Origin: a bacterium | Lineage (GTDB): Bacteria; CSSED10-310; JAJRTK01 | Direction: 5' to 3' | Length of the DNA stretch: 42,407 bases | Assembly (NCBI GenBank): GCA_024278345.1 | Contig: JAJRTK010000116.1 | Coordinates: 1 to 42,407, forward strand | The notes under the pieces: model-generated | What the model was told of the DNA's origin: nothing | The model's database searches: none | What the model saw: only the letters and a program-made list of their open reading frames with translations | Program-made: the position numbers and the translations under genes | Part shown: positions 7,407-42,407 of the stretch, in pieces | How positions within the stretch are numbered: position 1 is the stretch's first letter | Layout of the letters: the number at the start of each line of letters is the position of its first letter

Positions 7407-7769
7407 ATGTCGCACCCTAGACACAAGGATCTGAAAAGGCTCATCGCGATCATGGCAAAGAAGCAACGGCAGAAGCACGCGCAGGCAACTGGACAGCGGC
7501 TCCGAGCCGCCCGGCGGGCATATCTCCGCAGCCACTACATCGCCTACGGATACCTTCACGGACGCTCCATCGCCCGGATGGAAGCCCCCGGGACCATGCG
7601 GCTTGTGGATATCGACCAGGTGCTGAAAATCTTTCGTGCTCGCCATCCAGGTGCGCCCAAGGAGCGGGCCCAAGCCACGGTGATCCTTCTCGAAGAACTT
7701 TATGCCTGGAACTGCAACATCAAGATGCGCCTTCAGGTATTCTCCGGGATGCTGAAGGTGGCGGCATGA
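7407..7769 (+). CDS. Small basic protein before the primase-helicase, unknown
   Basis: 120 residues; AGGAG lies seven bases before the ATG. The first 55 residues are strongly basic (Lys, Arg, His, Gln) and helical, suggesting nucleic-acid binding; the remainder is helical without a known motif. Its stop overlaps the primase-helicase start as ATGA, so the two are translationally coupled. A role in origin recognition or helicase loading would fit this position but is inference. Confidence 0.7.
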   Translation: MSHPRHKDLKRLIAIMAKKQRQKHAQATGQRLRAARRAYLRSHYIAYGYLHGRSIARMEAPGTMRLVDIDQVLKIFRARHPGAPKERAQATVILLEELYAWNCNIKMRLQVFSGMLKVAA

Positions 7770-10327
7770 TGACGGCGCGGGACAACCATGATTGGAGCAG
7801 GGAACACGTCTACTATGCGCTGCGTCTGCTGGTCCCCCGGGGGCAGGTCACGGAGCTTCGGGCGCTCAATGTCCGCCGTGGCCGCGGCCGGCCTTTTCAG
7901 AGCAGTGGGTACTTCGACGATTTGGACGCGATGGCAGATGCAGCGGCCATACTGTCCGGACAGGCGGACGGAGTCTATTTCCTCCCGAATCCCGTGGACA
8001 AGCGACTACTGGCAAGGTCGTGCAACAAGCTCAAGGACTATCCCAAGCGGACGACCACGGATGCTGAAATCACGAGACGCGTAGTCCTGCTCCTTGACTT
8101 CGACGCCATCCGACCGGCGGGGATTCCGGCCACTGACTCTGAACATACCATGGCCATCGACAGGGCCAGAGCCGCACGAGACCGCCTGCATGGTGTCGGT
8201 TTTCCGCCTCCTGTCTTGGCCGATTCAGGAAACGGTGCCCATCTGGTCTATCGCGTGGATCTGCCTCGGGATGACAAAGGGCTACTAAAACGCTGCCTCG
8301 AAGGTGCCGCTTTCCTTTTCGACGATATCGCTGTGCAGGTGGATCGGACGGTCTACAACGCAGCCCGGATTTGGAAGATGTACGGCACTCTTGCCCGGAA
8401 AGGGGACGGCGCTCCAGGGCAGCCCCACCGCTACGCGTTGATCCTTGATGCCCCGGAGCAGCTTGACGTCGTTCCTGAAAAGCTCCTGCTGTCGCTGGCG
8501 GACGCAGCTCCAAAAGTGCCGACTCCAAAGCCACGGAATGTCGTCACGCTCCAGCATCGTTCGTTCGACCTTGAAAACTGGCTCCGGGACCACAGCGTCC
8601 CGGTCGCTCCTCCGGTCCCCTGGTCCGGCGGCCGGCTGTGGCGATTCCTGGAACGATGCCCCTTTGATGCTCAGCATAAGGGGCGCGAGTTCCATATCGC
8701 GGAGCTTCCGTCCGGGGCCATCAGTGCCGGGTGTCAGCACGCGACCTGCCCTGGGAGCAAGGCCAATGGTAATGCGTGGGATTTGGTGCGGGAGCTATTC
8801 GAGCCCGGCTACAAAGATAAACAGGCAAAGTCGCGGCCGAAAAGAGCGAAGAAAAGAACACCGGCCAAGGCTGATCCCGGTGCGGAGGCTCCACCGGATG
8901 GAGGCAAGCTCCTTTGGGCGCCACTCACGGACTATGGCAATGCGGAGCGACTCATGGAAGCGGCTCTCGATAAAGATGGCACACCGCTCCTCCGATGGTG
9001 CGGGCAAAGGGATCGGTGGCTCTACTGGACAAAAAAGCGATGGTGCTGGGACGAAACAGGGATTGCCGAACGGTACGCCAAACGCACGATTCGGCAGCTT
9101 TATGAGGCTGCAATCGACATAAAAAACGACGACTACCGCGAACAGCTCCGGACCCATGCCCGCCGCTCGGAATCCGCTGGCCGGTTGAAGAACATGCTGG
9201 AACTTTTCAAGACCGAGCCAGGAATCGGTGTGCTCATGGACGACCTCGACGCCAACGATTGGCTCTTGAACTGCCAAAACGGGGAGGTGGATCTCAGGAC
9301 TGGCGAGCTGCATCCGCACCGTAAAGAGAGCCTCTGCACGAAGATCGTCAGAGCGAGCTACGGGAAAGATGCGGAGTGCCGTGAGTGGGAAGACTTCCTC
9401 TACTACATCATGGACGGAGATACCGAGCTCGTCCGGTTCCTTCAGCGGGCACTGGGGTATTCTCTCACGGGGGTTCCGGCTCAGGAGCTCTTTTTCTGCT
9501 ACGGCCTTGGAGCGAACGGAAAGTCCGTATATCTGGAGGTGATATCCCGGATCCTGGCCGATTATGCGGGGGAAGCGGCCCAAGGGCTCATGCTGGAAAA
9601 AAAGAGCGAACAGCACCAGACGGAGATCGCCGACCTGACCGGAAGGCGGTTTGTCACCAGCGAGGAAGTCTCCTCCACCTCCATTCTTGACGAAGGAAAG
9701 GTGAAGCGGCTCACTAGCGGAAGGAACATAAAAGCGCGATTCATGCGACAGGACCTCTTCGAATTCCGACCGACACACAAACTGTGGCTCGCGGTCAACC
9801 ACAAACCGCGGATCCGGAGCCAAGACAAAGGGATTTGGCGACGGATCAAGATGATCCCCTTCCGCGTCACGATTCCAGACAAGGATCAGAAACCATTTTC
9901 GGATGTTGTGCATGGGTTCCTCAGCGAAAGCGATGCCATTGTGCGCTGGCTCGTGAATGGCTGCCTGGAGTGGCAGCGGCAGGGCTTGAACCCCCCGCGG
10001 GCTATCCATGCAGCCATCGAAGACTACCGGGACGACATGGATATTCTGGGCCGGTTTTTGCGTGAGAAAACCGTGGCGGAATCGGAAGCGTGGATCCAGT
10101 CATCAGTTCTTTATAAGGCCTACCAGGCATGGGCGGAGCAGCAAGGCATGAAGCGACCCTGGACGCAGACCGCGTTTTCATTGCGGCTCCAGGATCGCGG
10201 GATGTCGAAAATCACCCGAGGAACAGTCCGCTGGCTCGGGATCCGCCTTCGAGCCGAACTGGAGGGTTTGGAGGGTCCGGAACAACCCTCCACTGACTAT
10301 CCATCAGGGCAAGCTCAATGGAATTAG
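7766..10327 (+). CDS. Replicative primase (AEP type) fused to SF3 helicase (D5/P4-like)
   Basis: 853 residues. The N-terminal part is an archaeo-eukaryotic primase domain: motif I LLLDFDAIRP (Asp111, Asp113), motif II SGNGAHLVY (His159), and motif III near RIWKMYGTLARKGD. A zinc-binding segment follows (CPF...H...GCQHATC, about 290-325). After a basic linker (about 350-370) come a D5_N-like helical region and an SF3 helicase with Walker A GLGANGKS (about 580-587), Walker B-like FVTSEEV (about 631-637) and sensor LAVNHKPR. This is the all-in-one replication initiator of many temperate phages and satellites: it melts the origin, unwinds and primes. The last ~20 codons run into the GGAGGG repeat array, so its likely binding site overlaps its own 3' end. 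Confidence 0.93.
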   Translation: MMTARDNHDWSREHVYYALRLLVPRGQVTELRALNVRRGRGRPFQSSGYFDDLDAMADAAAILSGQADGVYFLPNPVDKRLLARSCNKLKDYPKRTTTDAEITRRVVLLLDFDAIRPAGIPATDSEHTMAIDRARAARDRLHGVGFPPPVLADSGNGAHLVYRVDLPRDDKGLLKRCLEGAAFLFDDIAVQVDRTVYNAARIWKMYGTLARKGDGAPGQPHRYALILDAPEQLDVVPEKLLLSLADAAPKVPTPKPRNVVTLQHRSFDLENWLRDHSVPVAPPVPWSGGRLWRFLERCPFDAQHKGREFHIAELPSGAISAGCQHATCPGSKANGNAWDLVRELFEPGYKDKQAKSRPKRAKKRTPAKADPGAEAPPDGGKLLWAPLTDYGNAERLMEAALDKDGTPLLRWCGQRDRWLYWTKKRWCWDETGIAERYAKRTIRQLYEAAIDIKNDDYREQLRTHARRSESAGRLKNMLELFKTEPGIGVLMDDLDANDWLLNCQNGEVDLRTGELHPHRKESLCTKIVRASYGKDAECREWEDFLYYIMDGDTELVRFLQRALGYSLTGVPAQELFFCYGLGANGKSVYLEVISRILADYAGEAAQGLMLEKKSEQHQTEIADLTGRRFVTSEEVSSTSILDEGKVKRLTSGRNIKARFMRQDLFEFRPTHKLWLAVNHKPRIRSQDKGIWRRIKMIPFRVTIPDKDQKPFSDVVHGFLSESDAIVRWLVNGCLEWQRQGLNPPRAIHAAIEDYRDDMDILGRFLREKTVAESEAWIQSSVLYKAYQAWAEQQGMKRPWTQTAFSLRLQDRGMSKITRGTVRWLGIRLRAELEGLEGPEQPSTDYPSGQAQWN

Positions 10328-10545
10328 TGGATTACAACCTGGAGTGGAGGGTTGGAGGGTTTGGAGGGTTTGCATATCCCTTACGCGTGCGCGCGCGCGC
10401 ACACCCACAATCCCTCTTATTGGGATGATGGTGTTGCTGACTAACCCTCCAACCCTCCAAATTTATACATTAACCAGTTGAAAGAAAAGAAAAAAGAATG
10501 ATTCTCCAAACCCTCCAAAACCCTCCACAAACCCTCCAACCCTCC
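10261..10545. repeat. Iteron-like GGAGGG/CCCTCC array, candidate replication origin
   Basis: Twelve copies of one hexamer. GGAGGG occurs at 10261, 10270, 10346, 10354 and 10363. Its complement CCCTCC occurs at 10286, 10445, 10453, 10511, 10521, 10532 and 10540. Most copies are flanked by TT/AA and spaced 8-11 bases apart, about one helical turn. The forward copies cluster left of a GC-alternating tract and an AT-rich stretch (10457-10500), and the reverse copies cluster right of it. The layout, next to the SF3 helicase gene, resembles iteron origins. Three forward copies in a row are also G-quadruplex-prone. Confidence 0.75.
10382..10404. other. Alternating purine-pyrimidine (CG/CA) tract, possible Z-DNA
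   Basis: Twenty-three bases alternate strictly between pyrimidine and purine, mostly as repeated GC with flanking CA and TA steps. It lies between the two halves of the repeat array. Such tracts can flip to left-handed DNA under negative supercoiling. Confidence 0.7.
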
Positions 10546-11031
10546 AGCCAGCATTTCAGTGACTCCCTGAGGGCGGGACGCCAGGGAGAGGACTACATCA
10601 AGGCCCTGCTGGAGGAACAAGGATTCCGCGTCACCAGAGCCACCATGCCGGCACAACGGCGCGGGATTGACCTTTTCGTTAGCAGACCCAAATCAGTGGA
10701 GGTCAAGACATGCTGGACGAAAAGATGTTTCCTCGAGTTCGCCAGGTTTACCAGGGGCATCCACGAGCCCAGCGGGTTGGCGACTACGGAGGCCGATTGG
10801 TGGGCCATCGTGCGGCCTGGGGATGAGCCGAAGGTCTACTGGTGCCGCCCTGCCATCCTTTGGAAGCGCTGTAGCCAATGGATGGAGAGGTATGGCCAGG
10901 CCTATGGGCCACAAGAAAGGGGAGGCCGAGCAAAGAGCCACGGGGTCATGGTGCCGTGGCAGGATATCGCCAGTGTGGCGACAGCCGGTCCGGCTGAAAG
11001 GCACGAGGCCAGCATCGAACGAGGGGAGTAA
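10498..11031 (+). CDS. PD-(D/E)xK nuclease, Holliday-junction-resolvase-like
   Basis: 177 residues. The fold signature is clear: GRQGEDYIKALLEEQGF (Glu31), RGIDLFVS (Asp58), then SVEVKT (Glu68, Lys70), the order seen in archaeal Hjc-type and related restriction-like resolvases. The first ~20 residues (LQNPPQTLQP) are encoded by the repeat array, so the ATG at 10498, with only a poor A-rich ribosome site, may not be the real start; no other in-frame ATG occurs before residue 50. It probably resolves branched DNA before packaging, since it lies between the replication and terminase genes. Confidence 0.75.
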   Translation: MILQTLQNPPQTLQPSSQHFSDSLRAGRQGEDYIKALLEEQGFRVTRATMPAQRRGIDLFVSRPKSVEVKTCWTKRCFLEFARFTRGIHEPSGLATTEADWWAIVRPGDEPKVYWCRPAILWKRCSQWMERYGQAYGPQERGGRAKSHGVMVPWQDIASVATAGPAERHEASIERGE

Positions 11032-33798: not shown

Positions 33799-33819
33799 AC
33801 CAACAACGAGGAGGCCACC

Positions 33820-41800: not shown

Positions 41801-42407
41801 CTATACCGCCAGCGGCAGCCCGCCTATGGTCAATGTTTTGCTCTCTTCCGGGTAAATCCACTCCGGGAAGCGAAGATCCATGACCGAGTCCGAGACGCCA
41901 GGCCAATCGCCGGACTCCCGGCAGGCCTGTAGATTCTCCAGCCAGCGCCGATAGACCACCCGCCCAGCAGCCAGAGCACGCTCCTCGACCAGGTAGACCA
42001 TCACATCGTGCGGGAGATCACTCACGACAGCGACCACGTACACCGGTCGATAAAATCCCGTGACAAGCGCCGCTGCATCGCTGTACCACGCCAACTTCAC
42101 GTGGTAGCGAAGCCGAGCCGCGTCCCGCACGAAATCTCTCACGGTCCGGTGCCGCGTCGTCTTCAGATCGACCTGACACCCATCGGACAAAAAATCGATC
42201 CGCCCCTTGCAAGCGATGCCCGTCTTCGGGTCGTCCCAAAAAAGGGACAGCTCCGACTGACCTTCCAGCAGCAGTTTCGAGGCCGACGGGTGCTCCGCCA
42301 CCGCTCGCGCCATCTCCGAGATCTGCTCTATCTGGTCGCCCGTCAAGACCGTCCGACCACTCGCTTCCACCCGCCCCCGCCACTCCCGGGCGGCTTTGGT
42401 CCGAAAA
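41801..42407 (-). CDS. RecE/YqaJ-like exonuclease, C-terminal part (runs off the right edge)
   Basis: Residues about 75-275 of the same exonuclease whose N-terminus is at 1-703. This copy reads CQVDLKTT at the catalytic Asp/Lys motif, closer to the usual D-x-K-T-T form than the left copy (CLVDLKMT). The stop lies 11 bases before the next gene. An ATG at 42370 is internal, not the start. Confidence 0.85.
   Translation of the reverse strand, partial: FRTKAAREWRGRVEASGRTVLTGDQIEQISEMARAVAEHPSASKLLLEGQSELSLFWDDPKTGIACKGRIDFLSDGCQVDLKTTRHRTVRDFVRDAARLRYHVKLAWYSDAAALVTGFYRPVYVVAVVSDLPHDVMVYLVEERALAAGRVVYRRWLENLQACRESGDWPGVSDSVMDLRFPEWIYPEESKTLTIGGLPLAV
41926..42407. repeat. Right copy of the 482-bp near-perfect terminal repeat
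   Basis: Direct repeat of 1-482. Substitutions in this copy are at 42047, 42159, 42174 and 42286. One is synonymous and three change the nuclease protein. Confidence 0.95.

Follow-up and report, generated by a model that had tools for sequence, protein, structure and literature searches.

What does a tight array of one short repeat do across the stop codon of a phage primase-helicase gene? The question is raised by twelve exact copies of GGAGGG/CCCTCC at 10261–10545 of a bacterial contig, all present where a preliminary description had placed them. Here 'the window' refers to the whole contig of 42,407 nucleotides and not to the array. The preliminary description took the repeats for an iteron-like origin, and this is the best-supported reading, given the opposing repeats of relatives, the unstable DNA at the array, the SaPI5-like predicted fold of the helicase and the anatomy of phage O1205. 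We consider it highly probable that the array is the replication origin of a temperate phage and is read by the phage's own primase-helicase. Such an origin is of an already known kind, the downstream iteron origin of a self-loading D5/SaPI-type helicase, and the assignment confidently places an origin in an uncharacterised phage genome.

A phage genome and its repeat array

The window is one contig of a 6.06-Mb draft genome. The same 482 bp stand at both ends (1–482 and 41926–42407) apart from four mismatches. The contig therefore seems to be an entire phage genome of ~41.9 kb, either circular or terminally redundant, and the mismatches suggest a mixed population. Pfam and PHROG matches reveal a terminase, a portal and a head-maturation protease. 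Also encoded are an integrase, an amidase and a CI-like HTH repressor, and the phage is regarded as temperate because of its integrase and repressor genes. Incidentally, a phage-borne gene at 829–1662 joins pentapeptide repeats (Pfam Pentapeptide, E 1e-8) to an ion channel domain with a TLGYGD filter (Ion_trans_2, E 4e-13).

The hexamer is not over-represented in the window overall, with 34 copies against 39.7 expected. Its clustering is extreme, with 12 copies in 300 bp, a span in which the commonest hexamer of 20 shuffled windows reached five at most. On the plus strand, GGAGGG starts at 10261, 10270, 10346, 10354 and 10363, and CCCTCC starts at 10286, 10445, 10453, 10511, 10521, 10532 and 10540; the full repeat unit is approximately TGGAGGGTT. 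The array begins 67 bp upstream of the helicase stop codon and ends 218 bp downstream of it, and so straddles the 3′ end of the gene. Copies are grouped into four clusters about 76–100 bp apart. Within clusters their spacing of 8–11 bp is often shorter than the helical turn with which it had been equated.

The outer-left cluster (10260–10292) contains TGGAGGG at 10260 and 10269 and an inverted CCCTCCA at 10286. It can form a hairpin, as its single-stranded DNA fold has −9.6 kcal/mol with a z of −2.15. The inner-left cluster (10340–10369, plus strand) has TGGAGGG at 10345, 10353 and 10362, with a one-mismatch copy at ~10340. Facing them are the inner-right cluster (10445–10459, minus strand), with CCCTCCA at 10445 and 10453, and the outer-right cluster (10511–10546, minus strand), with CCCTCCA at 10511, 10521, 10532 and 10540. 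The arms do oppose each other as first described, except that the copy at 10286 is turned against its arm, and the clusters read '>><', '>>>', '<<' and '<<<<' from left to right.

Between the inner arms is a GC-rich core of 76 bp (10369–10444). It contains the alternating pyrimidine-purine tract TACGCGTGCGCGCGCGCGCACAC at 10382–10404, which is the longest in the window at 23 nt and lies where a GC-alternating tract had been reported. An A-rich tract had been placed centrally as well, but the AT-rich tract, at 10461–10510, is located off-center between the inner-right and outer-right clusters. When the 42.4-kb window was scanned for nearest-neighbour stability, these were its least stable 50 bp, and a 40-bp scan led to the same place. 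This tract is probably the unwinding element. Incidentally, a small hairpin, ATCCC...GGGAT, occurs in the core beside the alternating tract (10410–10426), and TCCCAT/ATGGGA words are found in the cores of 7/49 other loci, when 1.2 are expected. Beyond the alternating tract, a search for a core consensus gave CGCGCG, TCCCAT and a few other enriched words, not far above the maxima of shuffled sequences.

The array is partly coding, as had been proposed, to the extent that three copies fall within the final 67 bp of the helicase reading frame, where they encode only a tail that is predicted to be disordered. On the other side, a nuclease-like ORF at 10498–11031 (plus strand; weak Mrr_cat match, PHROG 13596) has an uncertain start codon because its first codons are iterons, and the four copies attributed to its 5′ end are inside it only if translation starts at the ATG at 10498. 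No match was obtained when this nuclease was compared with the VRR-NUC protein of Enterococcus hirae.

The primase-helicase and its possible action at the array

The primase-helicase gene (7766–10327, plus strand) encodes 853 amino acids with Pfam matches to D5_N, DUF5906 and Pox_D5 and with PHROG matches. An AlphaFold model of its last 475 residues has a mean pLDDT of 91, and the final 10 residues, in the iteron-encoded tail, are below 50. The model aligns with the SaPI5 primase-helicase (PDB 7ola) over 388 residues with a Z of 30.0 at 13% identity, and this match spans model residues 1–462. It also matches ASFV C962R (Z 31.6) and poxvirus D5/E5, and a sequence profile of the helicase reaches 7ola with an E of 1e-22. 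The protein is thus predicted to have the SaPI5/D5 superfamily-3 fold. Model residues 391–450 follow a strand-helix-helix-strand-strand order with high confidence, so the C-terminus would be a winged-helix-like domain, which the 7ola alignment covers at the level of fold.

In known systems, the Rep helicases of SaPIs use their C-terminal domain to recognise iterons that immediately follow the gene encoding them (PMC7581432). Likewise, Cch2, the D5-type helicase of SCCmec, binds direct repeats located downstream of the gene for it, and depends on the iteron sequence for helicase activity and unwinding (PMC7581432). By analogy, the winged-helix domain of the phage helicase would bind the TGGAGGG iterons, and the two inner clusters, with their opposite orientations, would load a pair of helicase rings head to head about the 76-bp core. 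Strand opening could be made easier by the AT-rich tract nearby and by the alternating pyrimidine-purine run. Then the two rings would depart in opposite directions for a bidirectional start, again by analogy, while the primase part primes synthesis. The outer clusters, about 75–80 bp further out, probably raise the local helicase concentration or wrap DNA. Coevolution between the iteron word and the winged-helix domain was examined by a partial Mantel test in which the ATPase domain was controlled, and the result was negative (88 of 500 permutations reached or exceeded the observed value), so that it is by analogy that the helicase is named as the protein reading the iterons.

Replication signals in the base composition agree in part with a start at the array. 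Cumulative GC skew has its maximum at 33814 and its minimum at 8620, at a distance of 1.7 kb from the array, and both gene strand and gene content confound the skew. The third-position skew of same-strand genes is zero or negative at 4.3–8.4 kb, mostly positive at 9–31 kb and negative at 34–36 kb, with a change of sign inside same-strand genes at ~8.4 kb. With this offset and confounding in mind, the pattern would suit bidirectional replication that starts close to the array. No exact DnaA box, TTATNCACA, is present in the window, and its seven one-mismatch matches are fewer than expected by chance, none being within 2.6 kb of the array.

We conceived that the arms could act by structure instead, extruding a cruciform or stem-loop of which the helicase recognises the shape, as proposed for the plasmid pRN1. 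The inner arms are able to pair as a 17-bp stem with a ~80-nt loop, and the inner region folds as single-stranded DNA with a z of −6.87. Moreover, inverted arms recur among relatives, and pRN1 replication needs a 100-bp stem-loop 3′ of the primase-helicase gene, a scheme that has been extended to phage BIP-1 (PMC4234260). However, a stem arises automatically from opposing direct repeats, which pair in any case, so the inner-arm pairing does not single out recognition of structure. The outer clusters are unequal (three copies on the left, four on the right) with offset spacing, which suits binding sites better, and Cch2 binding is abolished by deletion of direct repeats but not of inverted repeats (PMC7581432). 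Shape recognition is accordingly an unlikely account of this array.

Recurrence and geometry among relatives

If the array is an origin read by the adjacent helicase, what do the ends of related helicase genes look like? Loci were gathered from viral contigs, plasmids, phage records and genomes, and reduced to 100 non-redundant representatives, with helicases mostly 33–53% identical and lower identity for the most distant ones. A scan of GTDB contigs contributed a single relative (L083), whose 3′ end is masked, and viral scans with the single proteins L090 and L086 gave few loci. The exact pattern TGGAGGGTTTGGAGGGTTTGGAGGGTT had no match in viral contigs.

Opposing exact 7-mers with a score of at least 5 were found in 25/100 relatives, versus 1/1000 shuffles and 3/99 in-gene controls, and the window ties for the top score among the 100. 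When gapped inverted arms were scored instead, 52/100 relatives reached at least 26, versus 2.5% of shuffles, with 2/100 upstream in-gene controls and 3/77 downstream controls doing so. Streptococcus phage O1205 is one of the 52. These counts come from representatives partly related to one another, and about half of the 100 have no array by the detectors used. Three of these loci (L097, L101 and L104) also show no opposing array by eye downstream of the primase-helicase gene, and they may use another origin. Incidentally, all three are actinobacterial phages in which a gene for DNA polymerase I closely follows that of the primase-helicase.

The repeat words vary by lineage, with GGGACGG, GTGACGG, GGGTTAA, TGACAGA, ACTGGAG, AGAACAG and TTAGTTAC among them. 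The word of the window is nearly matched in a plasmid-prophage of Enterococcus hirae (L093) and in a viral contig (L202). Near-identical words occur beside helicases only 24–46% identical in their ATPase domains, as in the window with L202 and L093, in L157 with L099, and in L203 with L102; the pair L157 and L099 share TTAGTTAC at 24% ATPase identity. Such recurrence could reflect convergence, exchange or a limited vocabulary. Two further observations concern individual loci. Four Gram-positive loci (L093, L099, L170 and L191) have an extra element like CCTTGATATA...AAGGGTTT near their outer clusters, which the window is without, and L165 has apparently two consecutive opposing sets (clusters at −39/+27 and +99/+164).

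Repeat arrays can serve as operators, and these repeats do lie between two same-strand genes. A repressor or the helicase might then bind them for control of the operon, with replication starting elsewhere. None of the analyses favours this reading. A search of 10100–10800 gave neither a promoter-like nor a terminator-like site, and the window has no Rfam family. In addition, many distant phages and plasmids have an array where their helicase gene ends, and the unstable DNA at the array would be left unexplained. We regard a purely regulatory array as very improbable.

Relatives bear also on the suggestion that the G-rich strand of each arm folds into a quadruplex, which would control replication or transcription. 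GGG runs are repeated in the array, and a relaxed four-run motif with an allowed loop of 8 nt occurs on the minus strand of the outer-right cluster. However, there is no canonical three-tetrad motif (four runs of at least three G with loops of 1–7) on either strand of 10241–10560. Among related arrays, 3/49 have a canonical motif, versus 0/490 gene controls, and two-tetrad motifs are only slightly commoner in arms (25/49) than in gene controls (204/490). Furthermore, many relatives use words without G runs, for example TTAGTTAC or TGACAG. Quadruplex control has next to no credibility here, and the suggestion was dropped.

Among the arrays of relatives, geometry recurs while the words differ. 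For its measurement, the repeat unit was defined from the inner arms only, and outer copies were then counted by orientation. At 100–139 bp from the core midpoint, 61 copies have the right orientation and 17 the wrong one, while the two are about even at 160–259 bp (24 versus 22). Both outer clusters are present in 13/48 loci, and one of them in 12/48. Wrong-orientation copies are enriched at 80–119 bp (28 versus 8.8 expected, Poisson p 2e-7), which explains the copy at 10286 in the window as part of an outer '>><' unit. In general, inner clusters are ~45 bp and outer clusters ~100–140 bp from the midpoint, the outer ones often with one inverted copy, and the core length is mostly 50–100 bp. 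The window fits this recurring anatomy, its odd copy included. Left arms are G-richer than right arms on the gene strand in 38/49 loci.

The core and its flanks recur in kind as well. Of 49 cores, 8 contain an alternating pyrimidine-purine run of at least 16 nt. The gene and downstream controls have no such run, and 1.1% of shuffles preserving neighbour frequencies have one. Overall, the run lengths differ with p-values of 5e-9 against gene controls, 3e-8 against downstream controls and 2e-5 against shuffles. The runs are TATATA in AT-rich loci and CGCGCG or CACACA in GC-rich loci. The 40-bp segment with the lowest stability in the entire locus is no more than 170 bp from the core in 29/49 cases, when 6% is expected (p 2e-22). 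All these geometric p-values overstate independence because the representatives are partly related.

The D5/P4-type primase-helicase origins of several bacterial phyla could thus have one geometry, with four clusters at about −120, −45, +45 and +120 bp, an inverted copy in the outer clusters and an alternating core, filled with unrelated words. We give this generalization even chances. As part of it, the alternating core would consist of TA steps in AT-rich genomes and of CG/CA steps, potentially Z-DNA, in GC-rich genomes. The four-cluster geometry with an alternating core across phyla seems to be new as a statistical result, as the literature searched describes such origins one at a time, with no general description of this geometry found there. 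If it is true, what these origins conserve as their code would be spacing and DNA shape instead of sequence, and the helicase gene alone could suffice for finding many of them in phages. Such a rule could ease origin finding beside D5/P4-type helicases in metagenomes. Fast-changing iteron words in a fixed geometry would also provide a system for studying the joint change of an initiator and its binding site.

Comparison with known origins

The α protein of phage P4 presumably belongs to the same broad class, that of one-protein, origin-recognising primase-helicases, the likeness being at class level. The window resembles the SaPI system in the predicted fold of the helicase (SaPI5 primase-helicase, PDB 7ola/7om0) and in having short iterons directly downstream. 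It differs from SaPI in its word TGGAGGG, its four clusters, the GC-alternating tract in the core and the off-center AT-rich tract, and in belonging to a full temperate phage instead of a satellite. Cch2 of SCCmec is similarly a helicase with D5_N/Primase_Cterm domains that uses its C-terminal part to bind direct repeats behind its gene, but only three iterons are reported for it, and its inverted repeats are dispensable for binding (PMC7581432).

Like the window, the Sulfolobus plasmid pRN1 has its origin 3′ of a primase-helicase gene whose product has a winged-helix C-terminus (PMC4234260). Unlike the window, it is an archaeal plasmid, and its stem-loop, with a stem of 21 nt around a 58-nt loop, is described without iterons (PMC4234260). 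We would guess that the pRN1 stem may itself be a minimal opposing-arm origin.

The Streptococcus phage O1205 offers another likeness in anatomy, with opposing arms TTAGTTACTTAGTTAC and GTAACTAAGTAACTAA downstream of the primase gene and a core of 58 bp containing a TATATATA run. It differs from the window in its AT-rich core, its iteron word and its helicase, which is only about 22% identical. Origin activity is described for the Sfi21 element, and the same source counts O1205 among the phages with a reported non-coding origin region (PMC6356513). One anatomy would thus link Sfi21/O1205 with phages of Listeria, Bacillus, Enterococcus and Mycobacterium smegmatis and with planctomycete and gemmatimonad plasmids, and SaPI joins them by analogy.
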